DNA from: an uncultured Bacteroidia bacterium
GTDB lineage: Bacteria > Bacteroidota > Bacteroidia > Bacteroidales > UBA932
DNA: 42,997 nucleotides
Assembly: GCA_902784435.1 (NCBI GenBank)
Contig: CACZUR010000019.1
Location: 1-42,997, forward strand
Direction: 5' to 3'
In this document: piece after piece, positions 8,466 through 42,240 of the stretch
Layout: the number at the start of each line of letters is the position of its first letter
Numbering within the stretch: the stretch's first letter is position 1
Notes under the pieces: model-generated
What the model was told of the DNA's origin: nothing
Seen by the model: the letters and a program-made list of their open reading frames with translations, nothing else
Databases searched by the model: none
Position numbers and translations under genes: made by a program

Positions 8466-9158
8466 TTAGCGCAGCTGGAAGATCACGGGGAAGGTGTAGG
8501 TAACCTTCACAGCGCGGTCACGCTGACGGCCGGGCTTCCACTTGGGAGAGCTGGAGACCACGCGGACAGCTTCCTTGTCCAGGGATTCGTCCACGCCACG
8601 GAGCACGCGCACGTTGGTCACGCGGCCGTCGGCCTCTACGGTGAACTGAAGGGTGACACGACCCTGTACACCGTTCTCCTTGGCAATTTCCGGATACACC
8701 AGACGGGAGTTCACCCACTTGGAGAATTCGTTGGCATCGCCGCCGTTGAAGGAAGGCTTCTGTTCTACCAGCTGGAAAGGAATGGCTTCCTCTTCCACTT
8801 CTTCTTCCACGACCTCGGCTTCCTTGTAGTCCTGGATTTCGACAGCCTGGTTGTTGTCTTCCAGATTGATGAACAGGTCGTCGTCCAGTTTGATGTCATC
8901 GTCCACGATGTCGATCTGGTCGCTCAGGACGGGAATGCTGGGAGCCTCCGGCGGGGGCGGGGGAAGCTCGTTCTGGATAGCAATCATCTCTTCCTCTACC
9001 AGCACCTGGGTGGTGTCTTCCAGGGCGGCCACCTTGGCATCCTTGGAGGACCACTCGAAGGCGCCGAAGGTAATCAGGAGAGCGATCACAAGGCCAATCT
9101 CGGTGAAGAGCAGGCGCTTGTTCTCAAGGCTGGCTTTTTCTGATTTTTTGATCTCCAT
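8466..9158 (-). CDS. tonB: Energy transducer TonB
   Basis: A 230-residue TonB-family protein that couples inner-membrane proton motive force to TonB-dependent outer-membrane receptors. One membrane helix sits near residues 19-35 (EIGLVIALLITFGAFEW). A proline run at about 65-70 and a long acidic linker rich in Asp and Glu follow. The C-terminal domain has the family motif SRLVYPEIAKENGVQGRVTLQF and the ending AVKVTYTFPVIF. It is monocistronic, with a good promoter upstream and a strong terminator downstream. The ExbB and ExbD partners are not in this window. It could energise either of the SusC/TonB receptors encoded to the right. Confidence 0.93.
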   Translation of the reverse strand: MEIKKSEKASLENKRLLFTEIGLVIALLITFGAFEWSSKDAKVAALEDTTQVLVEEEMIAIQNELPPPPPEAPSIPVLSDQIDIVDDDIKLDDDLFINLEDNNQAVEIQDYKEAEVVEEEVEEEAIPFQLVEQKPSFNGGDANEFSKWVNSRLVYPEIAKENGVQGRVTLQFTVEADGRVTNVRVLRGVDESLDKEAVRVVSSSPKWKPGRQRDRAVKVTYTFPVIFQLR

Positions 9159-16479: not shown

Positions 16480-16895
16480 ACCAAGGGCCGCTGGGAAAGA
16501 TAATAATTCTCCTTGGCCCGCATCTGGGCAACATCCTCCTCCGTATGGTCGTCGTAGCCGATGAGGTGAAGCAACCCGTGGACAATGACGCGGTTCAGTT
16601 CATCGGCAAATTCGGTCCCATAAAAAGCGGCATTTTCCCGTACGGAATCGATGGAGATAAAGAGGTCGCCGGAAAGGCGGTTTCCCTCGCAATAGTCAAA
16701 AGTGATGATGTCGGTATAATAATCGTGTTGCAGATATTTTATATTGACATCCAAAATATAATTATCGGAACAAAATATTACTGAGATATCTCCCAGCCGC
16801 TTGGATTCGCTCTCGGCCACAAACTTGAGCCAGCGCGAAGTCAAGCGCTTCTCCTTAAAAGGGAAATGAATGTCTTCGGTAAAATAGGAAACCAT
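16476..16895 (-). CDS. ybeY: Endoribonuclease YbeY
   Basis: A 139-residue metal-dependent endoribonuclease acting in 16S rRNA maturation and ribosome quality control. The metal site reads [12 protein letters not shown] at residues 106-117. His106 and His110 are the first two ligands, and the position usually filled by the third ligand is Asp116, as I recall for other Bacteroidota YbeY proteins. The start is [13 protein letters not shown] at 16895, because an earlier in-frame ATG would run deep into the STAS gene. The stop overlaps the mnmG ATG, and the start is one base after the STAS stop. Confidence 0.93.
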
Positions 16896-16896
16896 C

Positions 16897-17199
16897 TTAT
16901 TCGAATTCAAAAATGGACACGAAACCCGTGAGATCCAGCACATCGCGGACCACCTCGTTCACATGCTTCAGGACAACGCGGGAACCCACGGACTGCGCCT
17001 GTTTCAGAATGCTCAGCAGCAGCCGAAGCCCGCTGGAAGCGATGTACTCCAGGTCAGTGCAGTCAATTACAATGTCCTTGCCCTGCGATTGCAGCAGGGG
17101 TTGCAGCGCCAATTCGGCCTCCGGAGTAGCGGCTGTATCCAATTCGCCGCAGAGGATGGCTACGAGCTTTCCGTCTATTTCCTGAACAGAAATTGTCAT
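16897..17199 (-). CDS. STAS-domain anti-anti-sigma factor (RsbV/SpoIIAA-like)
   Basis: A 100-residue stand-alone STAS domain. The signature VIDCTDLEYIASSGLRLLLSI holds the serine normally phosphorylated by a partner kinase, here Ser55 or Ser56. In partner switching, the unphosphorylated STAS protein binds an RsbW-type kinase and frees the kinase's target. Its ATG overlaps the stop of the phosphatase/ATPase gene as ATGA, so the two proteins are almost certainly made together. The final target is not visible. Confidence 0.9.
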   Translation of the reverse strand: MTISVQEIDGKLVAILCGELDTAATPEAELALQPLLQSQGKDIVIDCTDLEYIASSGLRLLLSILKQAQSVGSRVVLKHVNEVVRDVLDLTGFVSIFEFE

Positions 17200-18359
17200 A
17201 CGATAATTTTTGTCAAAGTTAATACATTCTTTCCTTCTTTCCGCGAATAAGAGACAGAATCCATGATTTTACGCGTGAGCAGGATGCCCAATCCTCCGAT
17301 GGGCCGGTCTTGGACGCCCAGGCGGGTATCGGGCGGAACCGCTGCCGTGGAATCGAAGGGAACGCCTTCATCGACGATGGTAAAGCGGATCTCCCGATGG
17401 TCGCTGTCGGCATAGACGGTAATCACGCCTTCCTTTCCCTCCGGATAGGCATAGTTGATGGCATTGACGACGGCTTCCTCGGCCGCGAGCCGAATGCTCA
17501 GGGCCAGATTCTGTTCCAGCTCCAAGCGGGCGCAAAGGGCTTTCAGAAAATCACTTAGGCGGGACAGCTCCTCCGAACGGTTCTTGAGGTTGATATGCTC
17601 CCGGACAAGGTCTGCAGGCGCATACTGCACCAGCAGCATGGTCAGGTCGTCGCTCTGGGGCGCATCTCCGACAAAAGCGTGCACGGCTTCCTGCACCGAA
17701 AGGACCGACTGCCGGGCGTCAAGGCCGCGGGAAAGGGCATCCTGCAGACAGGCCTGCACCCGCGGGCGCCCGAAGAACGCGCGATGGCCATTCCTGGCTT
17801 CCGTAAGACCATCGGTATACAGGAAGAGCGACATGCCGGGAGAAAACTCAAGCAACTGCTCTTCAAAAACCGTGTCCAGGAAAACACCCAGGGGAAGATT
17901 GGCCTTGGCCGGCAGGAGTGACACACCATCCGTGAGTAAAAACGGCTTGTCATGACCGGCATTGGCAAAGCGGAAATGCCCCGTATAATAGTCGATGGTA
18001 CCCACGAAAAAGGTCACGAACATATGGGTGTCGTTGTCCAGGCACAACTGCTCGTTCAAGAGACGAAGAATGGCAGAAGGACGCTCGACACGCCGGGAAA
18101 CCATCCGGAACAGCGAACGGATCACGGCCATGAGCATGGCCGAAGGCACCCCCTTACCGCTCACATCCCCCATGCAGAAAAACAGCTTGCCATCCCTCCG
18201 ATAAAAATCGAAGACGTCTCCGCCCACCTCGCGGGCCGGTTCCAACAGGCCGAAAATATCGGCAGGGAAGGTCTTGGGCAGCATTTCCTGCTGAATTTTT
18301 CGGGCGGCCTCCAGCTCACCGCTGATGCGCGCCTGCCAACTATTATCTGAAGAATCCAC
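17196..18359 (-). CDS. PP2C (SpoIIE/RsbU-type) phosphatase fused to RsbW-like ATPase domain
   Basis: A 387-residue cytosolic protein with two modules. Residues about 15-245 form a SpoIIE-type PP2C serine phosphatase, with motifs EVGGDVFDF, GDVSGKGVPSAM, ANAGHDKPF, YTDGLTEARNG and SDDLTML. Residues about 255-387 form a HATPase_c anti-sigma-kinase-like domain, with the N-box EEAVVNAINYAY, the DEGVPFD box and GGLGI. The phosphatase would dephosphorylate the adjacent STAS protein and the ATPase domain could rephosphorylate it, putting both opposing activities in one chain. No sensor domain or membrane helix precedes the phosphatase. It heads the operon with the STAS gene, ybeY and mnmG. A family role in a stress-type switch is inferred. 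Confidence 0.9.
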   Translation of the reverse strand: MDSSDNSWQARISGELEAARKIQQEMLPKTFPADIFGLLEPAREVGGDVFDFYRRDGKLFFCMGDVSGKGVPSAMLMAVIRSLFRMVSRRVERPSAILRLLNEQLCLDNDTHMFVTFFVGTIDYYTGHFRFANAGHDKPFLLTDGVSLLPAKANLPLGVFLDTVFEEQLLEFSPGMSLFLYTDGLTEARNGHRAFFGRPRVQACLQDALSRGLDARQSVLSVQEAVHAFVGDAPQSDDLTMLLVQYAPADLVREHINLKNRSEELSRLSDFLKALCARLELEQNLALSIRLAAEEAVVNAINYAYPEGKEGVITVYADSDHREIRFTIVDEGVPFDSTAAVPPDTRLGVQDRPIGGLGILLTRKIMDSVSYSRKEGKNVLTLTKIIV

Positions 18360-18425
18360 CTGCTAAAAATTTGATTGGTAAAGTTATCACTAGTTTTTGA
18401 GAACGCAAAATAAGAAAAAAATAAA

Positions 18426-18433
18426 TAAATTTG
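18426..18433 (+). promoter_or_regulatory. -7 promoter box for the peptide synthetase gene
   Basis: TAAATTTG matches TAnnTTTG and ends 20 bases before the ATG at 18454. TTTG at 18396-18399 is the nearest -33-like element, but the 26-base spacer is longer than the usual 20 or so. The box supports the start at 18454 over an in-frame ATG at 18397 upstream of it. Confidence 0.65.
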
Positions 18434-18453
18434 TGAATAACAAAACATTCGAC

Positions 18454-21400
18454 ATGAATCCACATCCGGCCAACACGCTTTTGGAGGCTTTTCACCTGCA
18501 GGCAAAAGCCCATCCGGAGCACCTCGCTCTGGTTTACGAAAACACACGCCTTACCTATGGAGAGGTAGACCGCTTATCCGACCATCTGGCGGCCTATATT
18601 GCTTCCCAGGTGCCTCCGGGGAGTGTCGTAGGCATCATGCTGGGCCGAAACGAATATATGATGGTGGCCCCGCTGGGCGCGCTCAAGGCCGGCTGCGCCT
18701 ACCTCCCGCTGGATCCGTCCTATCCGCCTGAGCGCCTGGAATTCATGATGAAAGACGCCGATGCCCGAATGCTCCTGGCCGACGAAGACCTTCTCCCCAT
18801 CCTGAAGGCCTTCGACGGACCGGTGGTCAAAACCTCCGATATCCGGAAACTGCTTCCCGGCAAGCCCCAGGCACACCCGCAGCCGGACGACCTGTTTATC
18901 TTGCTGTATACCAGCGGCACCACCGGCACGCCCAAGGGCTGCATGCTCACGCACAAGAACGTCTACGCCTTTGCACACAAACACGCGGAAAGGGTGGGAA
19001 TCACGCAGGATTCCCGCGTCACCGCCTATGCCAGCTTCGGCTTCGACGCCTTCGTGGGAGACCTGTATTCCACCCTGGTGGCCGGGGCAACCCTTTTCGT
19101 GATTCCCGAACGCCTGCGGCTGGACCTGCCGGCCCTGCACGCCTATTTTGAGGAAAACGGCATTACAGTCTGCTTCATGACCACCCAGGTGGCTACGCAG
19201 TTCGCCATCAATTATCCGGATTGCAAGGGTCTGCAGGTCATGTGGACCGGAGGGGAAAAGATGTCCTCTTTCCCGCTGCCGCATTACCGGCTGTTCAACT
19301 GCTACGGACCCACCGAATGCATCTGCTACGTGGTGAGCGAAGAAGTGAAGGTGCAGGAAGAGAACATTCCCATCGGCATACCCCTGCCCGGCATCCACGC
19401 CTATGTGGTGGACGCCAAAGGGAAACAGGTGCCGCAGGGGCAGACCGGAGAACTGTGGATTGCCGGAGACCAGGTGGGTCCGGGCTACCTGAACCGTCCG
19501 GACAAGACGGCCGAAGTGTTCCTGGACAACCCCTTCGAGAAAGACCCCGACTACGCCCGCGTATACCGCACCGGCGACATCGTCCGCTTCCGCGAAGACG
19601 GAAAAATCGAGTTTGTAGGCCGAAAGGACGGCCAGGTGAAAATCCGCGGCTTCCGCATCGAGCTCAAGGAAGTGGAGGCCGTGATTCGGGAATTCCCCGG
19701 CATCCAGGATGTGACCGTACAGGCCTTTGACGAGCCGGGTGCCGGTGCCGGAAAATTCCTCGCAGCCTATGTTGTCGGCCCGGAAGAAATTGATATTCAA
19801 AAACTGAACGATTTTATCGGCAGCAAAAAGCCCCCGTATATGGTGCCTGCGGTAACCCTGCAGATAGACGCCATCCCGCTCAATGTAAACCAGAAGGTGG
19901 ACGTAAAGGCCCTGCCCAAACCGGAACCGCAGGAGCGCAAGCAGGAGGCGCACGTGGCGCCCTTCAACGTGCTGGAAGAAGAGCTGGCGGCCCTCATCCG
20001 GGAAACGGTGGGAATCGGCGGCTTCGGCCTCACGGAGCCCCTCTATTACAGCGGCCTGTCCTCGCTGAGCGCCCTGCGCCTGGCCACGGAACTCTACAAA
20101 CGCTATGGCCTGGAATTCGACATGAACAGCTTTGCCAAGACGGCCAGCCTGCAAGGAATTGAAAACGAATTGCTTAAGCGCCTGATAACCCGCGGCGGAA
20201 CGCCGGAAGCCCAGGCAGAAAACTGCGCCGACGAGCCCCGGGAACTTACCTTCCAGCAGACAGGTCTGTACCTGGACTGCGTAAAGAACCCTTCGTCCAC
20301 GGCCTATAACCTGCCCAGCATCCTCACCTTCCCCAAAGGCATTACCGTGCAGCAGGTAAAAGAGGCCATGGCGGCGGTTCTGGCGGCTCACCCCGTGGTG
20401 GCCGGCCACTTTGAGCAGCGCGACGGAAAAGTGTTCCTGGTTCCCGGAACCCCCGACCAGGACATTCCCGTCACCAAACTCAAGAAAGAAGAAGACTTCC
20501 AGGCGCTGAAAGAGGGCTTTATGCAGCCCTACGACCTGACCAAGGGCCCCCTCTACCGCCTCCAGATAGTCCAGACCCCGGGCAAGCTGCGCCTCATGAC
20601 CGACTTCCACCACCTGGTATTCGACGGCCGCTCCTACGACGTGTTCCTCTCCCAGCTCACCGCCGCGCTGGAAGGCAAGGCGCCGGAAAAAGAACACTAC
20701 AGTTATTTCCAGTACGCCCTGGACCAGAAGGCCTATCAGGACAGTCCCTCCTTCCAAGAGGCCGAAGCTTTCTTTGCCGAAAGGATGGCCGGAAAGGAAG
20801 AGGACACCGGTCTGATTCCGGACAAAAAGCCGGAAGAGGGAACCGTGGGCCACGAGCGCTGGCTCCGGAAAAAGATAGCCCCGGGCGTACAGGAACGCTG
20901 TCATGCGCTGGGCATCTCGCCCGCCAGTTACTTCCTGGGTGCCGCCTTCGTGACGGTCAGTGCCTTCTGCGGACAGAAAAAGGTCTTCCTGTGCACGGTG
21001 GCCAATGGCCGCGGCGACATGCGGGCCGCCGACACCTTTGGCATGTTCGTGAACACCATGGCCCTCTCCGGCGAAGTGGACGGGCAGCGGGCCGACGACT
21101 TCCTGAAAGAGACCGACGCGAATTTTGCGCTCACCCTGGCCTATCAGAATTACCCCTTCGCCCGCCTGTCGGGCGCCTACGATTTCCATCCCTCCGTCAT
21201 GCTGGCCTACCAGGTGGGACTGGTAGAGAAATACCGCATCGGCGGAGAAATCCTGGAGGACGAACTCCTGACCCAGGATACGCCCAAGTTCCCGCTGAGC
21301 ATCTTCGTGGAAGGCACGGAAGAGGCGCCGGAGTTTGCCCTGGCCTACGACGACAGCCTGTACTCCGAAGCCCTGGTGCAACACTTTGCCGATGCCCTGG

Positions 21401-24400
21401 AAACCGTCAGCCGCGGCCTGCTGAAAGACGGTCTTTTGAGCGAAATTCCCCTCGTAGACGGCGAAAACCTGCAAAAACTGGACGATTTCAACCAATTTAC
21501 GCAGGAGGTGGATGAGGGCAAAACCGTGGTAGATTTGTTCCGAAAACAGGCCCAGGCCACCCCGGACGCCCCCGCCGTCCTCTTCGACGGGAAGGCCATC
21601 AGCTACCGGGAACTGGACGAATTCACCGATGCCCTGGCGGCCCGGATCCTGGAATTCGGCCTCGGGGAAGAAGACGTGGTGTCGGTCCTGATCGGCCGCA
21701 ATACCTGGATGACCAAGGCGTCTCTCGCGGCCATGAAAGCCGGCTGCGCTTACCAGCCGCTGGACCCCTCCTACCCGACGGAGCGCCTGAACTTCATGAT
21801 CCGGGACGCGCGCGCGAAACTGCTCATCGCCGACAAGGAACTGGTGCCGCTGGTAGGGGATTACCAGGGCCCGGTGCTCACCACGGCGGAGCTGGAAGAT
21901 GCCCGGTCGCTGCCGGGCATGACGGGGACGTCATGGCCGACCCCGATCGGCCATCGTCCCAAGCCGGAGAACCTGTACATCCTGCTTTATACGTCCGGCT
22001 CTACCGGCACGCCCAAGGGCTGCATGCTGGAGCACCGGAACCTCACCAATTTCTGCGCCTGGTACCGCGACTACTTCGGCCTCAAGGCCGGGCACCGGGT
22101 GGCGGCCTTTGCCAGTTACGGCTTCGACGCCAACATGATGGACCAGTATCCCGCCCTTACCTGCGGGGCCTGCGTGTGCATCATCCCGGAGGAGGTGCGG
22201 CACGACCTGGGCGCCCTGGACCGCTTCATCACCGAGAACGGCGTCACGCACAGCTTCATGACCACCCAGGTGGGCGTGATGTATGCCCGCAACTTCCCCG
22301 ACAACCCTTCACTCCAGTACCTGTCGGTAGGCGGCGAGAAACTGGTTTCCATGCCGCCGCCTTCCTATGCCTTCTACAACGGATACGGCCCCACCGAATG
22401 CACCATCTTCTCCACCATTTTCCATGTACGGGAGCGCGAGGACAACATTCCCATCGGCCATCCGCTCAGCAATGTACAACTGTATGTGGTGGACAAGCAC
22501 ATGCGGCGCCTGCCCGTGGGCGCGGCCGGCGAACTGCTCATCGGCGGTGCCGGCGTGGGCCGCGGCTACCTGAACAATCCGGAAAAGACGGCCGAAAGCT
22601 TCATCGACAATCCCTTCCGGCCGGGCGTGCGGCTGTACCGTTCCGGCGACATCGTGCGGTATCGGCCCGACGGAAACATCGAATTCGTGGGGCGGAAAGA
22701 CCGCCAGGTCAAGATTCGCGGTTTCCGCATCGAGCTCAAGGAAGTAGAGGCCGTGATTCAGGAAATACCTGGCGTTAAAGATGTTACGGTGCAGGCCTTC
22801 GACGCCCCGTCGGGCGGTAAGTTCCTGGCCGCCTATGTGGTGGCCGACAGCCGCTTCGACACCAAGGCTGCGGCCGGCTTCATCCGCGAACGCAAGCCTC
22901 CGTACATGATGCCCGCCGCCTGGATGCAGCTGGATGCCATCCCGCTCAACGTGAACCAGAAAGTGGACCGGAAGGCCCTGCCGCCGGCAACGCCCCAGGC
23001 CCTGGAAGACTATGTGGCACCCGTCGGCGAAACGGAAAAAGCCCTCTGCGACATCTTTGCCGATATCCTGGGGGTGGAACGCATCGGCGCCACCGACTCG
23101 TTCTTCGACCTGGGCGGCACTTCGCTCATGGTCACCAACGTCATGGTGAGCGCAGAGAAGAAGGGCCTTCATTTTGCCTATTCCGACGTGTTCGCGCATC
23201 CGTCGGCCCGCACCCTGGCCGCCTTCCTGCAGGGAGATCAGGCCCCGGCCCAGGAAGACAGCCTCATCACGGAGTACGACTATACCGCTATCGATAAACT
23301 GCTCAAAGGCAACAACTTGGAAGCCTTCCTGAAAGGGGAGCGCCTGCGCCTGGGCCGCCATATCCTTCTCACCGGCGCCACGGGCTTCCTGGGCATCCAC
23401 GTACTCAAAGAGCTGGTGGAAAGCACCGGACCGGACACCACCATCTGGTGCCTGCTGCGCAGCAAGGGAAGCATCACGCCCCAGCGACGACTGAAGGAAA
23501 TGCTGGTCTACTACTTCGAAAAGGACTATCGCAGCCTGCTGGGCAACCGCATCCAGGCCATCGAGGGCGACATCACCAAGCCCGAAAGCCTGGAAGGACT
23601 CTCGCAGATAGACACCGTGTTCAACTGCGCAGCCAATGTGAAGCACTTCTCAAAAGGGACTGACATTGAGGATATTAACTATGGCGGTGTGAAGAACCTG
23701 GTGGCCCTGTGCGAGCGCAAGGGCGCCTACCTGGTGCACGTTTCCACTGAGAGCGTGGGCGGCCTCACGCCCGGCAAAGTGCCCGACGTCCTTTCGGAAC
23801 AGACGCTGTTCTTCGGCCAGCTCACGGACAACCAGTACGTGCATTCCAAGTTCCTGGCAGAGAGGCATATCCTGCAGCACATGGCCGATGGAAAACTGCG
23901 CGCCAAGATCCTGCGCGCCGGCAACCTGTCGCCCCGCGCCGAAGACGGCGAATTCCAGGTGAACATGAACGCCAACGCCGCCATGGGCCGGCTCAAGGCA
24001 TTGAAACTCATCGGCGCCTGCCCCTACCAGGCACTGGAAGGCCAGATGGAATTCACCCCCATCGACGAAGCCGCCCGCGCCATGGTCCTGCTCGCCTGCA
24101 CACCGCTGGAAAACTGCGTCTTCAACGTGTCCAACAACCATCTGGTGCCCATGGACGACGTTTTAACCCGCCTGGACAAGATTGACGGCAAGCCCATGGA
24201 ATACGTGGAGAACGATGAATTCCTGCTGCGGATGAAGGCCCTGCAGGCCCAGCCCGGCATGGCCGCCGTCATGGCCCCGCTGGTGGCCTACGAGCAGTCG
24301 GCCGCCGAACGCGAAGGCGTGGAGACCCAGTCCTCCACGGTGTTCACCATGCAGGTGCTCATGCGCCTGGGCTTCCGCTGGAACACCACCTCCAGCGCCT

Positions 24401-24450
24401 ACATCGACCTCATCTTCGAGATGCTGCGCACCATGCGCTACTTCGGTTAG
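18454..24450 (+). CDS. Dimodular nonribosomal peptide synthetase, A-T-C-A-T-R (AusA-like)
   Basis: A 1,998-residue NRPS. A1 is about 1-490, with YTSGTTGTPKG near 152, NCYGPTE 282-288 and the catalytic Lys in NVNQKVD near 476. T1 is about 505-575, with carrier Ser537 in an unusual SGLSSLSAL setting. The C domain is about 595-1010, with H719-H720-LVF-D724-G725. A2 is about 1030-1510. T2 has Ser1557 in FFDLGGTSL. The C-terminal reductase (about 1630-1998) has NADPH-binding GATGFLG at 1641-1647 and Tyr1795/Lys1799 of the YxxxK pair. No starter condensation domain is present, so the first amino acid keeps a free amine. Reductive release would give a dipeptide aldehyde able to cyclise to a pyrazinone, as for AusA of Staphylococcus aureus. 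No phosphopantetheinyl transferase, transporter or tailoring gene is adjacent. The product is inferred. Confidence 0.95.
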   Translation: MNPHPANTLLEAFHLQAKAHPEHLALVYENTRLTYGEVDRLSDHLAAYIASQVPPGSVVGIMLGRNEYMMVAPLGALKAGCAYLPLDPSYPPERLEFMMKDADARMLLADEDLLPILKAFDGPVVKTSDIRKLLPGKPQAHPQPDDLFILLYTSGTTGTPKGCMLTHKNVYAFAHKHAERVGITQDSRVTAYASFGFDAFVGDLYSTLVAGATLFVIPERLRLDLPALHAYFEENGITVCFMTTQVATQFAINYPDCKGLQVMWTGGEKMSSFPLPHYRLFNCYGPTECICYVVSEEVKVQEENIPIGIPLPGIHAYVVDAKGKQVPQGQTGELWIAGDQVGPGYLNRPDKTAEVFLDNPFEKDPDYARVYRTGDIVRFREDGKIEFVGRKDGQVKIRGFRIELKEVEAVIREFPGIQDVTVQAFDEPGAGAGKFLAAYVVGPEEIDIQKLNDFIGSKKPPYMVPAVTLQIDAIPLNVNQKVDVKALPKPEPQERKQEAHVAPFNVLEEELAALIRETVGIGGFGLTEPLYYSGLSSLSALRLATELYKRYGLEFDMNSFAKTASLQGIENELLKRLITRGGTPEAQAENCADEPRELTFQQTGLYLDCVKNPSSTAYNLPSILTFPKGITVQQVKEAMAAVLAAHPVVAGHFEQRDGKVFLVPGTPDQDIPVTKLKKEEDFQALKEGFMQPYDLTKGPLYRLQIVQTPGKLRLMTDFHHLVFDGRSYDVFLSQLTAALEGKAPEKEHYSYFQYALDQKAYQDSPSFQEAEAFFAERMAGKEEDTGLIPDKKPEEGTVGHERWLRKKIAPGVQERCHALGISPASYFLGAAFVTVSAFCGQKKVFLCTVANGRGDMRAADTFGMFVNTMALSGEVDGQRADDFLKETDANFALTLAYQNYPFARLSGAYDFHPSVMLAYQVGLVEKYRIGGEILEDELLTQDTPKFPLSIFVEGTEEAPEFALAYDDSLYSEALVQHFADALETVSRGLLKDGLLSEIPLVDGENLQKLDDFNQFTQEVDEGKTVVDLFRKQAQATPDAPAVLFDGKAISYRELDEFTDALAARILEFGLGEEDVVSVLIGRNTWMTKASLAAMKAGCAYQPLDPSYPTERLNFMIRDARAKLLIADKELVPLVGDYQGPVLTTAELEDARSLPGMTGTSWPTPIGHRPKPENLYILLYTSGSTGTPKGCMLEHRNLTNFCAWYRDYFGLKAGHRVAAFASYGFDANMMDQYPALTCGACVCIIPEEVRHDLGALDRFITENGVTHSFMTTQVGVMYARNFPDNPSLQYLSVGGEKLVSMPPPSYAFYNGYGPTECTIFSTIFHVREREDNIPIGHPLSNVQLYVVDKHMRRLPVGAAGELLIGGAGVGRGYLNNPEKTAESFIDNPFRPGVRLYRSGDIVRYRPDGNIEFVGRKDRQVKIRGFRIELKEVEAVIQEIPGVKDVTVQAFDAPSGGKFLAAYVVADSRFDTKAAAGFIRERKPPYMMPAAWMQLDAIPLNVNQKVDRKALPPATPQALEDYVAPVGETEKALCDIFADILGVERIGATDSFFDLGGTSLMVTNVMVSAEKKGLHFAYSDVFAHPSARTLAAFLQGDQAPAQEDSLITEYDYTAIDKLLKGNNLEAFLKGERLRLGRHILLTGATGFLGIHVLKELVESTGPDTTIWCLLRSKGSITPQRRLKEMLVYYFEKDYRSLLGNRIQAIEGDITKPESLEGLSQIDTVFNCAANVKHFSKGTDIEDINYGGVKNLVALCERKGAYLVHVSTESVGGLTPGKVPDVLSEQTLFFGQLTDNQYVHSKFLAERHILQHMADGKLRAKILRAGNLSPRAEDGEFQVNMNANAAMGRLKALKLIGACPYQALEGQMEFTPIDEAARAMVLLACTPLENCVFNVSNNHLVPMDDVLTRLDKIDGKPMEYVENDEFLLRMKALQAQPGMAAVMAPLVAYEQSAAEREGVETQSSTVFTMQVLMRLGFRWNTTSSAYIDLIFEMLRTMRYFG

Positions 24451-24534
24451 CGCAGGGGCGGGGGCCGTGCTGCGGGGGCCGGCGGCAGGTGCCTGCGATG
24501 ACGGTGCTGCGGGGGCGTTGACTCGTTGCTTCGG

Positions 24535-24575
24535 CGTGTGTACATACGGCGTGTGTACATACCAGGTATGTGCAG
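24535..24575. repeat. Palindromic intergenic repeat, distant third copy
   Basis: GTACATACC (24555-24563), A, GGTATGTGC (24565-24573) differs from the perfect palindrome at 178-196 by the centre base and one arm base. A half-site, GTGTGTACATACGG, precedes it at 24537-24550. The sequence following the palindrome (CAGCG) is also shared with copy 1, so the homology extends beyond the palindrome. Confidence 0.75.
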
Positions 24576-24592
24576 CGAGTCAGGCGGTGTGG

Positions 24593-24770
24593 CACCCTGT
24601 TACGCACTTTGGGGCGTTTTTCGCGTTACACGTTGCACGGGCGTGCACCCTATTACGCACTTTCGGCCGTTTTTCGCGTTACACGTTGCACGGAGAAGCA
24701 CCCTGTTACGCACTTTTGGGCGTTTTCCGCGTTACACGTTGCACGGAGAAGCACCCTGTTACGCACTCAG
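24593..24770. repeat. Tandem array of a 53-base unit (three full copies, one partial)
   Basis: Copies begin with CACCCTRTTACGCACT at 24593, 24646, 24699 and 24752, exactly 53 bases apart. Each full unit also has a central CGTTTTYCGCGTTACACGTTGCACGG. Copies differ at a few bases and the fourth breaks off after about 16-20 bases. The 53-base period is not a multiple of three, which argues against a protein repeat. There are no unique spacers, so it is not a CRISPR array. Confidence 0.92.
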
Positions 24771-24825
24771 CGGCGTTATTGCGTCGACGCGGCAACGGTA
24801 ACGGCCGCACGTCCCCCCGCCAGGC

Positions 24826-24856
24826 TTGACCGGACCTCGCATTTTTCGTATCTTTG
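24826..24856 (+). promoter_or_regulatory. Bacteroidota promoter for hflX
   Basis: TTG (24826-24828), a 20-base spacer, and TATCTTTG (24849-24856) match the consensus. The box ends eight bases before the hflX ATG at 24865, so the transcript would be nearly leaderless. Confidence 0.8.
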
Positions 24857-24864
24857 CACTCGAT

Positions 24865-26124: not shown

Positions 26125-26580
26125 CTAGTACACATTCCCCAGCACGGAGGCAGGAATGGCCTTCACCTTCTCGTAGGTGTCCACTTCCTTGTTGCCGGGG
26201 GTGGTGAGCTTGATGGTTTTGGCGCTGATTTCGGCACTGTAGGGGCCCCAGTTGGCTCCGCCGTCGTATTTGCCGGAAAGCTTGTTGTCGGAGGAGAGGA
26301 CGTAGGTCCCGGTGAACTTGGTATAGCGTCCGTCGCCGATCTGCTGGTACAGCGTAAAGCCTCCACTGGTCGTAAAGTCCAGATACACAGACACGGGCAG
26401 GCCGCCGATACCGGCTTTGGTGGTTACGGAAACGAGCTCCCAGCAGCCGGAAATATCCGTCTGGGAAGTGCCGCTACCGTTACCGCCGCTGCCGCCGCCG
26501 GGCGTTACAGGGTTATCCTTGTTGCCGCCGCAGGCACACAGGGCCAGTGCAGCGAATACCATGGCAAAAAACTTCTTCAT
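26125..26580 (-). CDS. Small lipocalin-like lipoprotein
   Basis: A 151-residue lipoprotein (lipobox Cys17) with a glycine-serine linker (PGGGSGGNGSG) after the anchor and a domain of short strands starting ISGCWELVSVTTKAG. That opening resembles the G-x-W start of lipocalin-like domains common in Bacteroidota lipoproteins. The start MKKFFAMVF is favoured, with the ATG overlapping the protease stop by one base; an ATG one codon earlier is also possible. It is the last gene of the SusC operon. Its role is unknown; ligand binding at the surface is one possibility. Confidence 0.65.
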   Translation of the reverse strand: MKKFFAMVFAALALCACGGNKDNPVTPGGGSGGNGSGTSQTDISGCWELVSVTTKAGIGGLPVSVYLDFTTSGGFTLYQQIGDGRYTKFTGTYVLSSDNKLSGKYDGGANWGPYSAEISAKTIKLTTPGNKEVDTYEKVKAIPASVLGNVY

Positions 26581-28613
26581 CATAGCCATCCTCCTGTACC
26601 GTTTCCACCGTCCACGTCGCGGGCGATGATAGAGATTTCTTCACTGATTTCCATGCCGCCGGGAGGATTGTTGTCGCCACCCACGTGGCCGCCACCGCCC
26701 ACTGCCTTGATGGTGATCTTGCCGCTTCCCAGCCTGGTAGGATGGATATACAGGCGGCCGAACTGCACATAGGCATAGCATTCTCCCTCCGGAACGGCGG
26801 GATACTTGGCGGTATTGCTGGCCTGAATGGTCTCCAGGCCCAGGGACCGGATTGTGGCTTCCGGAACATCTACCGAAAGGTAGGTGAGGCTCACGGAAGA
26901 GGAACCAAAGGCGTTCTCCAGGTTAATCCACTGTGTCTGACCCATCTGGGCCGTAGAAGTGGGCGTTCCCTCGATATGCATCATCACGCGCCAGGCGTCG
27001 ATGGCGCCCGTTCCCATCTGGTGATAGTAGGCGCTCATGGGAGCCGGCATGCTGGCATACGGCTTCTCCTTGGTATTGGCAATGCGCTGGTCGATGTCGT
27101 TGGTCGACGACAGCAGCAGGCGCTTGAACTCCTCTCGGGTGTACTTCTTTCCCAGCTGCTTGGCATAGGACAGGGCCAGGGCCACCACGCCGCTCATGTG
27201 CGGGCAGGCCATGGACGTTCCCTGCATATAACCGTAATCGCTGTTATAGATTTGCAGGTCGATAGGAACCGTAGACAGCACTTCCGCCTTTTCGCCCACT
27301 CCCTGGCCATATTCGCCACCGGGGGCCGATATATTACAACCAGGCCCGTAGTTGGTATAGTAGGCCGGCAGGAAATCCGGGCCGAAGGAAGATACGCTGA
27401 TGATGTCTACGTATGCGCCAGGATAGTGCGCGAAGTTCTGCTTTTCATTGCCCGCGGCAAAGATGGCGATGTTACCGTCCAGCACGGGGTTGTTCTTGCT
27501 GGCTTCGAAATAGTGGATGGCATCAATCTCTACGCTGCCCACGCGCCGGATATAATCGTTATCCGAAGAAAAGGCCGATGAGTAACCGAACGAGCAGGAA
27601 ATGACGGAAGCCCCCATGTCGGCCGCATACTTGATGGCCTTGGCGGTGGCTTTGGTTCCACCGCTGCCCGCATCCTGACCGGAGAAAATCTGGCAGCTCA
27701 TGATGCGGCAGCCGTCGCCGGCGCCGGAACCGCCGGCAATGCCGGCCACGCCCTTACCATTGTTGTTCACGGCCGCAATAGTGCCGGCGCAGTGCGTTCC
27801 ATGCCCTACGTCGCCTTCCCATCTGCCCGTACTGGTATTATAAGCGCCACGGTCCCAGGTGATGGGGCCTTCGGTAACGAAGTTCAGGCCGTAGATATCG
27901 TCTACATAACCGTTTCCGTCATCGTCTACACCGTTGCCGGCCACCTCCTTGGTGTTCACCCACATATTGTCTTTCAGGTCCGGGTGATTGTATTTCACAC
28001 CTTCGTCCACCACGGCCACAACAATGTCCGGGTCTCCGCAGATGAGACGTTTCCACACGTCGTTCACATTCACATCGGCCCCTTTGACAATATAGTTGGA
28101 ATACGCCTTGCTGCCCTGGTTGAAGTAGTGCCACTGGTCCAGGAGCATGGGGTCGTTGAAGGTACCGGAGGCCGCAGCCTTGGTATAAGGCGTTTCCGGG
28201 GCCGATACCGGCTCTCCCACATAATCCTTTGTGGCAATGTGGTTATACTCCGCCAGGCTCACCTGTTCCAGGGCGGCCATGGCGCGGATGGAACGATGCA
28301 GGTTGGCACCTTCCTCCAGTTTTACCTCGTACCAGCGGTCCAGACCGAACTGCCGTTCCAGGTCTTCCTTTCCGGCAAACGAAGGGAGAAGTTTTTCAAT
28401 GGAAGCTACGCCTTCCAGCTGCAATCCGGCCAGTTCCTGTTCCGTGGGAACCGTGCGGAACTTGACCAGGAAAGAGGAGCTATCATATTCGTCCGAGAGC
28501 TGCACCACCTTGGTGGCGGGCTCGGAGACCGGCTCCGACGCTTCTTGGCGCTGCACGCAGGCTACGGTGGCCAGGGCCACCGCCACAAGCGGCAAAACAC
28601 ATAATCCTTTCAT
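26580..28613 (-). CDS. S8 (subtilisin-like) serine protease lipoprotein
   Basis: A 677-residue lipoprotein (lipobox Cys19) with an inhibitor-I9-like propeptide (about 45-120) and a subtilase domain. The catalytic triad is Asp203 in VVDEGVKYNHPD, His271 in VGHGTHCAG, and Ser467 in QGTSMACPHMSG; Asn389 in AAGNE supplies the oxyanion hole. The C-terminal about 120 residues form an extra beta-rich region ending in a glycine-rich tail. All catalytic residues are present. A strong hairpin lies between it and the lipoprotein gene upstream. As part of a SusC/SusD operon it probably cuts proteins at the cell surface or in the periplasm for uptake; this is inferred from context. Confidence 0.93.
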   Translation of the reverse strand: MKGLCVLPLVAVALATVACVQRQEASEPVSEPATKVVQLSDEYDSSSFLVKFRTVPTEQELAGLQLEGVASIEKLLPSFAGKEDLERQFGLDRWYEVKLEEGANLHRSIRAMAALEQVSLAEYNHIATKDYVGEPVSAPETPYTKAAASGTFNDPMLLDQWHYFNQGSKAYSNYIVKGADVNVNDVWKRLICGDPDIVVAVVDEGVKYNHPDLKDNMWVNTKEVAGNGVDDDGNGYVDDIYGLNFVTEGPITWDRGAYNTSTGRWEGDVGHGTHCAGTIAAVNNNGKGVAGIAGGSGAGDGCRIMSCQIFSGQDAGSGGTKATAKAIKYAADMGASVISCSFGYSSAFSSDNDYIRRVGSVEIDAIHYFEASKNNPVLDGNIAIFAAGNEKQNFAHYPGAYVDIISVSSFGPDFLPAYYTNYGPGCNISAPGGEYGQGVGEKAEVLSTVPIDLQIYNSDYGYMQGTSMACPHMSGVVALALSYAKQLGKKYTREEFKRLLLSSTNDIDQRIANTKEKPYASMPAPMSAYYHQMGTGAIDAWRVMMHIEGTPTSTAQMGQTQWINLENAFGSSSVSLTYLSVDVPEATIRSLGLETIQASNTAKYPAVPEGECYAYVQFGRLYIHPTRLGSGKITIKAVGGGGHVGGDNNPPGGMEISEEISIIARDVDGGNGTGGWL

Positions 28614-28628
28614 GCTTTTTCTTTTTTA

Positions 28629-28671
28629 CGACAAAGAGGCCCGGCGACTGGGCACCGGGTCTCTGTTGTCG
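28629..28671 (-). other. Strong RNA hairpin in the intercistronic gap before the S8 protease gene
   Basis: The two arms, CGACAAAGAGGCCCGG and CCGGGTCTCTGTTGTCG, pair over 16 base pairs with one bulged base and one wobble around a ten-base loop. On the transcribed strand it is followed by an A-rich stretch rather than a T-run, so it does not look like an intrinsic terminator. It sits about 16 bases before the protease ATG and could stabilise or attenuate the operon RNA. Confidence 0.7.
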
Positions 28672-28687
28672 ATTTTACAGATTCCTC

Positions 28688-31072
28688 TTATCTGCACTCC
28701 TCGCGGAGAACAAGGGCGCGCTTTGCGGCGCTCTCGCGCTCTTTGCGGTTGTAAGAGACCTTGACGGAAACTTTCACCGGCTGAGGGTCACGCTCGAAGA
28801 CAACGACCTCCTTGTTGTAAAGGCGGCTGCCGCTCGAGAGAATCACATCCTTGACCTCACCGTCCGTACGGGTAGGAGCAGCGGCGGGAGCAGAAGGAGC
28901 GGCGGAAGGCAGCTGAATCTTGAACGTTCCATCCAGGTTACCATAGTACCACTTGTCTAAGCCGGGCATACCGACATACATTTCCTCTGCAGGCCAGGTA
29001 ATGGCACCGTCCTTAAGAGTGCCGGTAGGTTCTGTTTCTATCATGAAGAAACCATAGGAACTGTTCACCAAGATGCCATAGTCCTGTGCTTCGATGAAAA
29101 CAGCGTCGGGGTCGGTAGCGTCAATCACTACTTCGGCATTTCTCCAGTTACCATCCTCGTATTGAGCCATCACGTCTTCAGTAGTACCGAAGAATCCGGC
29201 AGCTACAGCGCACTGGAAACCTGTAACCATGTACAGACCAGGGGTATTTGCCTCTTCGAACACGTCGCAAGGAACCGTTACGTCAGATTTGCCATTGAAC
29301 AAGGCGTTGAAGAAGCCGTCCGTGATGAGGCCCTTACCCAGGCTGTTCCAGACATACGGTAACTTGTCGGTGGTGTAGCTGTCATAGGCATAGCTATCCA
29401 TGGTGCCGTTGGTAGCCCACACAACCACATAGTAGGTGGTCTTGGCATTAAGGCCGGACAGCACATCGTAGTAGCCGCCTTCACCGTTCACCTGGGCAAG
29501 ATCGTCGACAGAAAGGGCGTAAGTATCCTTTGCGTCGGCCTTAACCGCTTCGAAAACGACGTCGGCACCGTTCTTGGTAATGGTTTCTTCCGTAAAGACA
29601 CCTACGTGAACCTCGGTAAGATCCGTACCGGAAATGCCATAGGCGAAGGAATCGTAGTTGTGGTAGTTCTGGTAACGTGCCGGAGTGTCTTCTGTGAAGA
29701 CATTCACATCCACGGCCAGATCTGCGGCATCGTCCTCGGCAACGAAGTTGAATACGGTGCTGGCAGAGTTCTGCACCTTACCGTCCTTGTCCAGACCCAG
29801 GGCAACCAGCGTGTAAGCACCGGTCTTTTCGGCTTCCAGATTCAGTGTTGCGTAGTTGATGGCCTCTTCCTCATCGAATTCGAACGCGTCGAATACCTCG
29901 GCCTTGGCATCCTTCTCAATCTCATCCAGTTTGCCTTCAATCTGAATCTTGCTCAGTTCGCCCTCGTAAATGGCGTATTTGAGGGAAGTAATGTCGGCGC
30001 CGGCCTCTACATACACGGGAGTGAAACCACTCTGCGGATAATCGGCTTCTACAGACAGTTTGTAATCTACTCGGGTGAAGCCGTCGACGATAGCCACGAC
30101 ATCATACGGATCCGGGCTGAAACCGCCTTTCAGGCTAGGAATGTAGTAACGGAGGTTGAAATAGAATCCGCCGTTGCCGTCGTAGTAGCCCACAGGGTAA
30201 GAGCCATCCTTCTGGCCGGTCTTGGTAGCTTCATCCAGCCAGTCGGCACCCATACCGTCGGAACCGAAGGCATAGCCTCTCTCTACCCAATACCAAGGAT
30301 AGTCGTAAAAATAAACAGGATTGGTAGCCTCAGACACCGGTACAGATTTCCAGCCATCGTAGTCAAAGCCAAAGTACTGCTTTTTGACTTCCAGGAAATT
30401 CTGGCCGTCGTTGTTGCTGTTCTTGGTGTACCAGGTAAATTCCAGGGTAACGTTCTGGGTGTCGCCCCAGATACCTTTGCCATCCTCAATGCTGTAGATG
30501 GTGCAGGTACGGACGCCGTTTACCTCGTAGAAACGCATCTTGGCCTGGTGAACTTCACCCCACCAGCCCTCGTTCAGGGTGATGATGGCAGGTTCCTTGG
30601 TCTTGGGATTCAGGAAGTCTTCCATCTTCACCTGCATGAAGGAGAAGTCCATGAAAGTGGTGGCAGTATTGTAGATGGAGGCGTACTGAGGGTCGGTGAC
30701 CGAAATCTGGAGTTTGTATTCCTTGCCTTCCTCGGCGGCGGGGAAGTCTACCGTAAAGGTGGTTTCCGCCTGGCCGTCGACAAAGTCGATGGAACCAATC
30801 TGGAACAGGTCCTTGTCGGAGCTTTCCACCACGATGGGCAGACCGGTGATGGCACCGGTGGTCTTTTTACGGGCAACCGTAAAGGTAGCGGTCAGTTCCT
30901 GGGTAGGATCATAGATATGGTAGCCTGTAGCTTCCTGTACCGGGAAATAGACGCCATAGCAGCCGTCCACATCAGGCGCACCGGGCACGTGGGCTTCTTC
31001 CTTCTTCTGGCAGGAAGCCACGGCTAACAGCGCGAGAGCGGCAACAGTAAAAATGCTAAAAAACTTTTTCAT
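28688..31072 (-). CDS. Large surface lipoprotein of the SusCD operon, function unknown
   Basis: A 794-residue lipoprotein (lipobox Cys21). No family was recognised with certainty. The N-terminal part (about 35-150) and a middle part (about 440-590, with LNAKTTYYVVVWATNG) read like immunoglobulin or fibronectin-type beta domains. The region around 150-330 is very rich in Trp and Tyr (EGWWGEVHQAKMRFYEV, WYWVERGYAFG), as in ligand-binding surface proteins. A proline-alanine-rich stretch near 730 precedes a basic tail. It lies 16 bases after susD and before the protease, the place where surface glycan- or peptide-binding lipoproteins are usually encoded. That role is inferred from position. Confidence 0.75.
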   Translation of the reverse strand: MKKFFSIFTVAALALLAVASCQKKEEAHVPGAPDVDGCYGVYFPVQEATGYHIYDPTQELTATFTVARKKTTGAITGLPIVVESSDKDLFQIGSIDFVDGQAETTFTVDFPAAEEGKEYKLQISVTDPQYASIYNTATTFMDFSFMQVKMEDFLNPKTKEPAIITLNEGWWGEVHQAKMRFYEVNGVRTCTIYSIEDGKGIWGDTQNVTLEFTWYTKNSNNDGQNFLEVKKQYFGFDYDGWKSVPVSEATNPVYFYDYPWYWVERGYAFGSDGMGADWLDEATKTGQKDGSYPVGYYDGNGGFYFNLRYYIPSLKGGFSPDPYDVVAIVDGFTRVDYKLSVEADYPQSGFTPVYVEAGADITSLKYAIYEGELSKIQIEGKLDEIEKDAKAEVFDAFEFDEEEAINYATLNLEAEKTGAYTLVALGLDKDGKVQNSASTVFNFVAEDDAADLAVDVNVFTEDTPARYQNYHNYDSFAYGISGTDLTEVHVGVFTEETITKNGADVVFEAVKADAKDTYALSVDDLAQVNGEGGYYDVLSGLNAKTTYYVVVWATNGTMDSYAYDSYTTDKLPYVWNSLGKGLITDGFFNALFNGKSDVTVPCDVFEEANTPGLYMVTGFQCAVAAGFFGTTEDVMAQYEDGNWRNAEVVIDATDPDAVFIEAQDYGILVNSSYGFFMIETEPTGTLKDGAITWPAEEMYVGMPGLDKWYYGNLDGTFKIQLPSAAPSAPAAAPTRTDGEVKDVILSSGSRLYNKEVVVFERDPQPVKVSVKVSYNRKERESAAKRALVLREECR

Positions 31073-31088
31073 TGTCTGTCAGTTTTAA

Positions 31089-32723
31089 TTAGTCGGTTAC
31101 ACCGTCACGAAGACCAGGGTTCTGGTCCATCTTGGGAAGATTACCGCCGGTGTTGTCTACAATAGCGAAGTTGGTATTGAGCTCACCGTTGTTGAAACGC
31201 ATGTTCAGCCAGCCGTCGTTGGCGGCCAGGTTGAAGCGGAAGTTAGGAGACCAGCTGGTGCTCTCGGGGGTGCCCAGGAAGCGGACCAGGGGTTTGTTCA
31301 GACGTTTGACATCGTGGATGCCGAAGCCTTCGCCCCAGAGCTCGACGCGGCGCTGGAACCAGACCTCGTCGGCGAAGTTGCGGCCGCCGGCGGTGGCGCT
31401 GTAGGAAGGATCACGGTAGGTCTTCACGAAGTTTTCCAGGATCTGGGTGGCCTGGGCCTGGTTGCCGCTCTTGGCAAGGGCCTCGGCCTGGATCAGGATC
31501 ATTTCTTCCACGCGCATGAGCGGGGAATCCTCGGCGTTGTCGGTGGTGCCGATAGGGTTGCAGCCGAACTTCACGTTGGTGTAGGGCGTGAAGGCCAGTT
31601 TGTCGTCGTACTCGAACTCGGAGATGGCCTGACCGGAAGCCTTTCCACCTTCGCCGGCATCCCATACGAGACCGTCCAGCAGCGGGGAATGCAGTTCTGC
31701 ATCTACCCACCAGCCCTTACGGACGTCGGTAGCAGGAATCTTGTCCCACAGGATCTTGTTGATGCTGGAGTAGGTACCGGTACCGGCGGCATAGGCCTTG
31801 GCCGAGAAGGAACGCAGCCAGGAAGAAGAGGTGGCATACTTGAAGGTCTTGGCAATGTCGGCCGTCATGTCGAAGCCCCAGATCCAGTTGTGCTCGCTGA
31901 TGTCCATGAAGGCGGGAACGCTGACCTCGGCGATGCTGGCGGGCTCATAGCCCTCGGCGGCCTTGGCGGCGTCGGCGGCAGCGTCTGCGTATTTACCCAT
32001 GAGCAGGTTGGCACGGGCGCGAAGGCCGTAAGCCACATTCAGGTCGATGTTCTGCTTGGAAGGACGCACATAACCATCCAGGTTCTCCACGGCATAGTTC
32101 AGGTCTGCGACAATGATGTCGTAGATTTCCTGTACGGAAGCGCGGGGATTGTTGGCGGGATCCGGAACGTCCGGCGAGCAGATGGGCACGGCGGGCTTGT
32201 CCTTGGCGATGGTGTAGTTGAACTGGAAGTCCTGTACCAGCAGCATGTAGGCGAAGGCACGCAGGGCGCGGGCCTGGCAAATCATGTAAATGCTGTTCTG
32301 GTCTTCCACTTCCTCCGGGAAACCGGCCAGGAAGTCGTTGGCATTGGCGATGATCATGTACGGAGTACGGTAGCGGATCACCGGGTTACGGTAGGATGCG
32401 TTACGGGAGCTGAGTTCACCGCACACGGAGAACCAGTTGTAGTTGTTGTCCGACAGGGTCAGATCCGGACCCTCTGCGTCGTTGCAGAAAAGCATCATCA
32501 GTACGCCCCAGTCGTCCGGGGTACCATAACCGAAGTAGTTCGGGTTGCCCAGGGGGTTGAACAGACCGGTAAAATCGGCGGAAGCACGGCTGGGAACGGC
32601 GACCAGGACTTCCTGGCGCTGGGAGGCCAGCATGGTGCCGCCCTCGGGCAGAACCTTGTTCATGTCAGTGCAGGCCACGGTGGCCAGCGCTGCAAACAAA
32701 ACAATATATCTATTGAGTTTCAT
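31089..32723 (-). CDS. SusD/RagB-family surface lipoprotein
   Basis: A 544-residue SusD-family protein, the lid that captures ligand over its SusC partner. It has a lipoprotein signal (lipobox Cys18), the helical TPR-like stretch AYGLRARANLLMGKYADAAADAAKA, and the C-terminal block MRVEEMILIQAEALAKSGNQAQAT, then ELWGEGFGIHDVKRLNKPL, typical of the family. It starts 12 bases after the SusC gene stop. The ligand cannot be deduced from the sequence; the linked protease makes peptides more likely than glycans. Confidence 0.94.
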   Translation of the reverse strand: MKLNRYIVLFAALATVACTDMNKVLPEGGTMLASQRQEVLVAVPSRASADFTGLFNPLGNPNYFGYGTPDDWGVLMMLFCNDAEGPDLTLSDNNYNWFSVCGELSSRNASYRNPVIRYRTPYMIIANANDFLAGFPEEVEDQNSIYMICQARALRAFAYMLLVQDFQFNYTIAKDKPAVPICSPDVPDPANNPRASVQEIYDIIVADLNYAVENLDGYVRPSKQNIDLNVAYGLRARANLLMGKYADAAADAAKAAEGYEPASIAEVSVPAFMDISEHNWIWGFDMTADIAKTFKYATSSSWLRSFSAKAYAAGTGTYSSINKILWDKIPATDVRKGWWVDAELHSPLLDGLVWDAGEGGKASGQAISEFEYDDKLAFTPYTNVKFGCNPIGTTDNAEDSPLMRVEEMILIQAEALAKSGNQAQATQILENFVKTYRDPSYSATAGGRNFADEVWFQRRVELWGEGFGIHDVKRLNKPLVRFLGTPESTSWSPNFRFNLAANDGWLNMRFNNGELNTNFAIVDNTGGNLPKMDQNPGLRDGVTD

Positions 32724-32735
32724 TGTCTGAACATT

Positions 32736-42168: not shown

Positions 42169-42174
42169 AGGGCG

Positions 42175-42206
42175 CAAAAATAGGAAAAAAAAAGGTTTCA
42201 CCCAAA
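42175..42206 (-). promoter_or_regulatory. Promoter of the TonB-receptor/DUF4249 operon
   Basis: On the minus strand TTTG (42206-42203), a 20-base spacer, and TATTTTTG (42182-42175) match both consensus elements. The -7 box ends six bases before the ATG at 42168. The -33 element falls in the loop of the terminator of the gene upstream. Confidence 0.8.
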
Positions 42207-42217
42207 GGATGAAACCC
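42185..42217 (-). terminator. Intrinsic terminator after the iron-sulfur subunit gene
   Basis: On the minus strand GGTTTCATCC pairs with GGGTGAAACC around a TTT loop (42216-42194), one wobble pair, followed by nine T (42193-42185). It lies about 25 bases after the stop of the iron-sulfur subunit gene and overlaps the next promoter. Confidence 0.88.
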
Positions 42218-42240
42218 ATTTTTAAGCACAATCTTGCGGA

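Follow-up and report, generated by a model that had tools for sequence, protein, structure and literature searches.

A stretch of 42,997 nucleotides (contig CACZUR010000019.1, positions 1 to 42,997, assembly GCA_902784435.1; hereafter the window) from an uncultured Bacteroidia bacterium (Bacteroidales, UBA932) encodes a putative non-ribosomal peptide synthetase (NRPS) with the domain order adenylation-carrier-condensation-adenylation-carrier-reductase (A-T-C-A-T-R), which raises the question of what the enzyme makes and whether it acts alone. To our knowledge, synthetases of this kind are unstudied in the window's lineage. A preliminary description of the sequence saw a stand-alone gene set between housekeeping genes. 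Here, we report that the gene adjoins a divergent partner switch; because this switch lies in the same inserted block and beside many related synthetases, the synthetase is less isolated than it first seemed, and that description is wrong on this point. The explanation as a whole, a dimodular dipeptide-aldehyde synthetase that makes up a cassette of three genes together with a divergent partner switch, strikes us as somewhat better than an even bet. Our numbered handles denote loci (L), genomes (G), and contigs of the window genome (C).

The synthetase and its predicted product

The synthetase frame is free of stops from 18397 to 24450 (+ strand, as are all its domains) and, from the ATG at 18454, encodes one uninterrupted chain of 1,998 amino acids (aa; 18454..24450). 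Pfam matches (AMP-binding, AMP-binding_C, and PP-binding, two each; Condensation, one; NAD_binding_4, one) bear out the A-T-C-A-T-R order of the preliminary description, and each catalytic motif that it listed was located in the sequence. Adenylation domain A1 (18493..19914, end approximate) carries YTSGTTGTPKG (18907-18939), and carrier T1 (19978..20184, limits approximate) holds its serine in GLSSL (20053-20067), a slightly unusual form of the motif. The condensation domain (20245..21429; residues 598-992) contains HHLVFDG (20608-20628), A2 (21601..22962; residues 1050-1503) contains YTSGSTGTPKG (21988-22020), and T2 (23041..23229; residues 1530-1592) holds its serine in GGTSL (23113-23127). 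The core of the terminal NAD(P)H thioester reductase (23368..24084; residues 1639-1877) has GATGFLG (23374-23394) and YVHSK, of the form YxxxK (23836-23850). The reductase region aligns over its whole length with its best solved match, 6vtj (E value, 8e-57), which we take to be a Methanobrevibacter ruminantium protein, and 4f6c, the reductase of the Staphylococcus aureusimine synthetase AusA, covers most of its length (E value, 2e-26).

Relatives were scanned with one genome per species, and 50 synthetase loci were found: 38 from Bacteroidales/Bacteroidia, mostly 73-82% identical to the window synthetase (exceptions, 41, 48, and 62%), and 12 from Clostridia (33-42%). Many of the source samples were ruminant (rumen) and others gut. 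These 50 loci at 33-82% identity, together with a low ratio of nonsynonymous to synonymous changes (pN/pS; median, 0.236 versus 20 relatives), exclude a chance frame. In the window's genus, 32 of 151 genomes match the synthetase at 300 bits or more; across the order, 13 of 295 match at an E value of 1e-100 or better and, the window's own genome aside, only two (G405 and G416) exceed 1,000 bits. The gene is therefore frequent in the genus, though patchily distributed, and seldom found in other members of the order. At one related locus (L029, 3260-10468), synthetase and hflX share a 2,402-aa open frame with no intervening stop, either a fusion or an assembly error.

Because the domain order and motifs are intact and the reductase aligns with solved reductases including that of AusA, a dipeptide aldehyde able to cyclize to a pyrazinone is the best inference for the product, as the preliminary description had proposed. 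A1 would load the first amino acid on T1 and A2 the second on T2, the condensation domain would join them, and the reductase would use NAD(P)H to release the dipeptide in aldehyde form. By analogy with AusA chemistry, a free amine, expected because there is no N-terminal starter condensation domain, would let the aldehyde close to a dihydropyrazinone and oxidize to a pyrazinone. Identity with AusA itself, in contrast, is rejected: the NCBIfam AusA equivalog NF047350 was the top model, yet its score was 958 bits where the cut-off is 2,500, so the architecture is AusA-like but the enzyme is not AusA. Both share the A-T-C-A-T-R order, reductase release, and a free N-terminal amine that makes a pyrazinone possible; the window synthetase differs in falling under the model cut-off, in its linkage to a partner switch, and in having no adjacent phosphopantetheinyl transferase (PPTase) found, whereas AusA has its modifying enzyme, AusB, in the ausAB cluster (PMC12153313).

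Aldehyde- and alcohol-forming terminal reductases have identical motifs, and two- and four-electron reductases are not separated by sequence here. The aldehyde is a predicted product, and it tells against this assignment that a terminal reductase can also yield an alcohol. Release of an alcohol by four-electron reduction, or of some other cyclized product, nevertheless seems to us decidedly unlikely, since the AusA reductase, one of the solved matches, performs a two-electron reductive release (PMC8210680), and the products reported for gut synthetases are dipeptide aldehydes or the pyrazinones derived from them (PMC12327764 and PMC8210680, which refer to Guo et al. 2017 and, for ruminopeptin of Ruminococcus bromii, to Schneider and Balskus 2018). 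The window architecture fits those gut enzymes in being dimodular and reductase terminated, as in gut anaerobes, and the gene has distant Clostridia relatives (Lachnospiraceae, Ruminococcus, and others) at the 33-42% identity given above; it differs in being from Bacteroidales, and it is likened to the published enzymes by description, not by sequence.

Ten-residue specificity codes were read by what we take to be the GrsA numbering, giving DAGFWGCCYK for A1 and DAMFSGGIFK for A2, and we know of no close match to either. The A2 code is near invariant (22 of 23 close-group sequences, with one change in L017; 10 of 10 at L066-L075; Clostridia locus L043), so the second residue, which would become the aldehyde end, seems fixed across relatives. 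The A1 code follows DA[GASC]F[WYF]GCCYK across the close group, and the first amino acid is perhaps more variable than the second. The window enzyme has one condensation domain; two occur in L019, in L038, and in the second synthetase of a tandem pair (L010, 9998-23278), and this form would be expected to N-acylate its product. L071 has an N-terminal extension with no Pfam condensation match. In a midpoint-rooted tree, synthetases with longer N termini fall outside the ~1,990-aa group, which suggests, on this one tree, that a starter condensation domain was lost in the window group, freeing the amine for pyrazinone formation.

A partner switch in the same inserted block

A gene divergent from the synthetase, the two start codons being 94 bp apart, encodes a SpoIIE-type phosphatase fused to an RsbW-like kinase domain, HATPase_c_2 (387 aa; 17196..18359, − strand). 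The dCache sensor that its relatives carry at the N terminus is lacking, as are their membrane segments. Next to it is a gene for an RsbV-like STAS antagonist (100 aa; 16897..17199, − strand) with an intact serine motif, IASSGL. The pair resembles the Bacillus-type RsbU/RsbV/RsbW partner switch (PMC8256260) in its SpoIIE phosphatase, STAS antagonist with serine, and HATPase_c_2 kinase, all with motifs kept; it differs in the fusion of phosphatase and kinase and in its place beside a synthetase gene. The pN/pS values indicate purifying selection on the phosphatase/kinase, the STAS protein, and the synthetase. The genes run mnmG, ybeY, antagonist, phosphatase/kinase, synthetase, with hflX on the other side.

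For comparison, mnmG and hflX were sought in 20 genomes of the genus, and 18 regions were compared, omitting G044, where mnmG and hflX are on separate contigs, and G041, where they are ~14 kb apart. In all 18, STAS, phosphatase, and synthetase genes are absent between ybeY and hflX, which are direct neighbors in 3 (L138, L139, and L140) and flank a TonB gene in the other 15; in the window, that TonB gene sits beyond mnmG (8466-9158). The switch as an ancestral neighbor of ybeY is accordingly rejected for the genus members compared. By this comparison, the switch and the synthetase are one ~8-kb insertion between ybeY and hflX (block, 16862..24862: antagonist, phosphatase/kinase, synthetase, and tail), with a left edge at 16862 or 16896, depending on the relative compared, and ~8.0 kb extra relative to the closest two (L138 and L139). 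Five of the 18 genomes have a synthetase elsewhere (G011, G023, G027, G038, and G095), and in three of these (G011, G027, and G095) a phosphatase gene lies beside it at that other site. Among the 20 largest of 40 direct repeat families, no repeats convincingly marked the block ends. A 53-bp tandem repeat array (24592..24767; 3.3 copies, 91% matches) lies inside the block between the synthetase and hflX.

Linkage of switch and synthetase across genomes

Synthetase loci were collapsed at ≥97% identity, with the window's locus and the pieces from its own genome (L001-L006) left out, giving 67 loci, of which 37 had at least 3 kb on both sides (four of them Clostridia: L046, L047, L049, and L055) and 30 were short flanked. 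Controls were 40 loci, all from the genus, around other AMP-binding genes (35 adequately flanked). Within 3.5 kb of the synthetase, SpoIIE was found in 27, STAS in 28, and either in 30 of the 37 flanked loci, counted with SpoIIE and STAS profiles seeded from some of these loci; in the 35 controls, neither SpoIIE nor STAS was found within that distance (0/35 each; Fisher P for SpoIIE, 8e-12). Over all 67 loci, SpoIIE was within 3.5 kb in 35, which form 17 contexts by shared flanking families, and a dCache sensor was detected by profile in 28 of these 35. The switch is divergent and upstream in the window group, co-directional and downstream in L068, L071, L073, L074, and L075, and co-directional and upstream in L038, L078, L080, and L081.

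The genus was also searched with the synthetase and with the sensor-phosphatase of L007, and the best matches were listed. In a ranking by best sensor-phosphatase match, every one of the top 19 genomes has the synthetase, whole or in part (for G115, no more than 95 residues at the end of a contig), and the twentieth, G002, has none; in 15 of the 19, the phosphatase gene is beside the synthetase on the same contig. Synthetase and phosphatase distances correlate (Mantel r, 0.81; 0/2000 permutations), also for 21 core sequences (r, 0.52; 0/2000).

Outside the genus, 48 phylogenetically non-independent loci were compared, and any of SpoIIE, STAS, or a MATE-HATPase protein was encoded within 4 kb of 20 of 31 reductase-terminated versus 2 of 17 reductase-less synthetases (P, 6.6e-4), one of the two positives, L048, being cut by a contig end and thus possibly reductase terminated. 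Individually, SpoIIE, STAS, and MATE-HATPase were found near 8, 10, and 15 of the reductase-terminated loci and 0, 2, and 1 of the reductase-less loci, respectively. L173 and L174, from other families of the order, have both SpoIIE and STAS. At L046 (the Sporofaciens locus) and L078, Pfam places a C-terminal HATPase_c_2 and MATE in one protein. Among 250 genomes of the L046 family, a MATE protein whose match covers most of the L046 fusion is encoded ~3 kb or less from a synthetase in 11 (G445, G459, G464, G508, G509, G587, G609, G620, G677, G685, and G690); the G464 match has an in-frame stop and is not classed as a kinase-domain fusion. Many other MATE matches in this family are not beside a synthetase, and no MATE-HATPase protein was found on viral contigs. 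Two more families recur as neighbors, one containing a PPTase (four loci; Pfam checked in L078) and one of outer-membrane barrels, seen at five loci (Pfam support is clear for L071 and weak for L081, with no match for L038).

Such a neighborhood has been described before. In M. ruminantium M1, the surroundings of the two-module synthetase mru0068 were reported to include two serine phosphatases as well as an anti-sigma factor antagonist and a MatE exporter, for which sensing, regulation, and export were proposed (Leahy et al. 2010; PMC2812497); in that paper, the terminal domain is a thioesterase in the text and a thioester reductase in a figure legend. The likeness to the window is the synthetase adjoining a phosphatase and an antagonist; the archaeal cluster differs in that its first module has a condensation domain, whereas the window has its kinase and phosphatase fused and no adjacent MATE gene found.

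Several observations weigh against the explanation as a whole. In ten of the 37 flanked loci, SpoIIE is missing from the 3.5 kb around the synthetase (L013, L014, L039, L046, L047, L049, L055, L069, L070, and L087), and seven of these have no STAS either; L013, L046, and L047 do, and in L046 and L047 a SpoIIE gene lies farther off in the same gene run. The close relatives L009, L011, and L027, whose short flanks place them outside the 37, show neither, and the switch is therefore not obligatory. Of the 35 positives, 17 share one context, short loci may mimic separate contexts, and the loci are non-independent. SpoIIE proteins as such are widespread in the genus, 96 of 151 genomes matching the L007 sensor-phosphatase at an E value of 1e-20 or better. 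The Mantel correlations take no account of shared species history, and the trees agree only broadly, the window phosphatase grouping with L018 and L019 and the window synthetase standing at the base of the other group. The scan of window proteins, which did not extend to the genes at 39133-42231 and 42241-42984, found no MATE exporter gene beside the synthetase; MATE matches in the window genome are on contigs C1, C4, and C25. On C1 (L196, 3761-9342), genes for an outer-membrane barrel, MATE, an NMT1-type binding protein, a dCache-HAMP-SpoIIE protein, and DUF3467 stand in a row, with no synthetase near them in the 11 kb examined. This row is a possible switch-linked exporter, and the presence of dCache-SpoIIE near MATE with no synthetase means that such modules have other uses. 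The C-terminal part of the C1 MATE protein aligned to the HATPase part of the L078 protein, and Pfam found no such domain there.

Some of these points would suit an account in which the synthetase does make a dipeptide aldehyde or pyrazinone while the switch, inserted with it by chance and co-inherited, has no functional tie to it: one shared site accounts for many linked loci, over a quarter of the flanked loci (10/37) have no SpoIIE neighbor, and switch-type genes also occur without a synthetase. We consider this account unlikely in the face of 17 contexts, several gene orders, occurrence in other families of the order (L173 and L174) and in Clostridia, 0/35 controls, the synthetase or a piece in all of the best 19 sensor-phosphatase genomes, and the 2010 report of such neighbors in an archaeon (PMC2812497).

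Sensor loss, proposed mechanism, and remaining features

Full-length relatives have a phosphatase of ~700 aa with an N-terminal dCache sensor (L007, L032, and L038 scanned), and in most switch-linked relatives, the phosphatase comes with a membrane dCache sensor. The window protein starts VDSSDNSW (VDSSRKSW in L019) and passes directly to the linker before the phosphatase domain; in L008, L020, L022, L031, and L035, the dCache part is gone and two hydrophobic segments are kept. Each of the two sensor-less forms keeps the reading frame, and they sit apart in the tree, so two separate loss events are likely. The shortened phosphatase as a pseudogene is unsupported: its catalytic half has a median pN/pS of 0.377 versus 0.354 among relatives over the same columns. 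Two window changes fall at columns invariant in 20 aligned relatives (R81 for H and S337 for P).

In the preferred cassette reading, the phosphatase would dephosphorylate the STAS protein, and the RsbW-like domain would rephosphorylate STAS or be titrated by it. The switch is linked to the synthetase by position, and the balance would set synthesis or use of the product, in a direction and through a target that we can only suppose. With the window's sensor gone in frame, its switch would run without that ligand input.

Alternatively, the dCache sensor of the full-length relatives might bind the synthetase's own product in a self-sensing signal circuit, from which the window lineage would have been uncoupled by sensor loss. 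The tight sensor-phosphatase/synthetase linkage and the two different in-frame losses with a retained catalytic half speak for this, as does the confident modeling of the L007 sensor as a dCache fold (mean pLDDT, 87.1; pTM, 0.72) with small-amine receptors among its best structural matches, which include PctD, MkcA, MCPX, TlpQ (histamine receptor), and McpU (with putrescine). Those matches, however, are at 11-19% identity with TM-scores mostly near 0.5, dCache domains bind many ligands so that a fold match does not tell the ligand, and the signal sensed may come from host or diet; we regard self-sensing as quite unlikely.

The cassette reading also needs its carriers activated, presumably by a PPTase on another contig. 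The preliminary description saw no transporter, tailoring, or activating enzyme nearby. That stands for transporters and PPTases beside the gene, where no AusB-type PPTase gene was found among the window proteins scanned, but not for the genome, which is 82.6% complete and has a single PPTase match (PF01648), a 212-aa frame on contig C14. Since G001 and G002, whose best synthetase matches are weak, also have a PPTase, that of C14 is probably the genome's general one.

A broader reading, which we hold to be improbable, is that reductase-terminated dimodular synthetases of gut bacteria and of a rumen archaeon are half of a portable signaling unit: the aldehyde or pyrazinone would be the signal, the dCache-SpoIIE/STAS/RsbW switch would read it or its setting and control synthesis, the RsbW-like domain fused to MATE in Clostridia would gate export by phosphorylation-dependent partner switching, and the window would be a sensor-less, constitutive derivative.

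Taken alone, the synthetase is an unremarkable example of a type already known. Dimodular pyrazinone-type synthetases were reported in 13 of 981 rumen genomes in a quorum-sensing survey (PMC9540692), and a rumen gene-cluster survey compares NRPS clusters of Firmicutes, Bacteroidota, and Euryarchaeota (PMC8241843). Among the literature matches listed (in one search, the best 20 of 2,386), no title or abstract dealt with a switch beside such Bacteroidales synthetases or with a MATE-HATPase fusion, and Guo 2017 and Schneider and Balskus 2018 may describe part of this. Switch-linked synthetases are known in kind since 2010 (M. ruminantium); within the literature reached, the breadth, the fusion, the cassette, and the sensor loss seem new. 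Interest lies in the statistical and positional bond with the switch across phyla, in its place in a single inserted block, in the fusion to an exporter, and in the naturally occurring variants that lost the sensor. Gut peptide aldehydes and pyrazinones are known and their natural role is debated; a recurrent switch shows where to seek regulation and hints at which organisms regulate the product or export it, and the in-frame sensor losses offer natural variants for comparison. Gating of transport through an anti-sigma-type kinase domain fused to a MATE exporter would be unusual.

In the window as a whole, no RNA families were found at gathering scores and no tRNAs by ARAGORN. An 84-bp tandem repeat (158-315; 1.9 copies) has GTGTACATAC stretches resembling those at 24532-24562. 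About 2 kb from the synthetase, genes for a subtilase, a lipoprotein, a SusD-like protein, and a TonB-dependent receptor (26580-36002, − strand) are possibly a peptide-use locus, and L017 also groups matches to the window subtilase, lipoprotein, and SusD-like genes.

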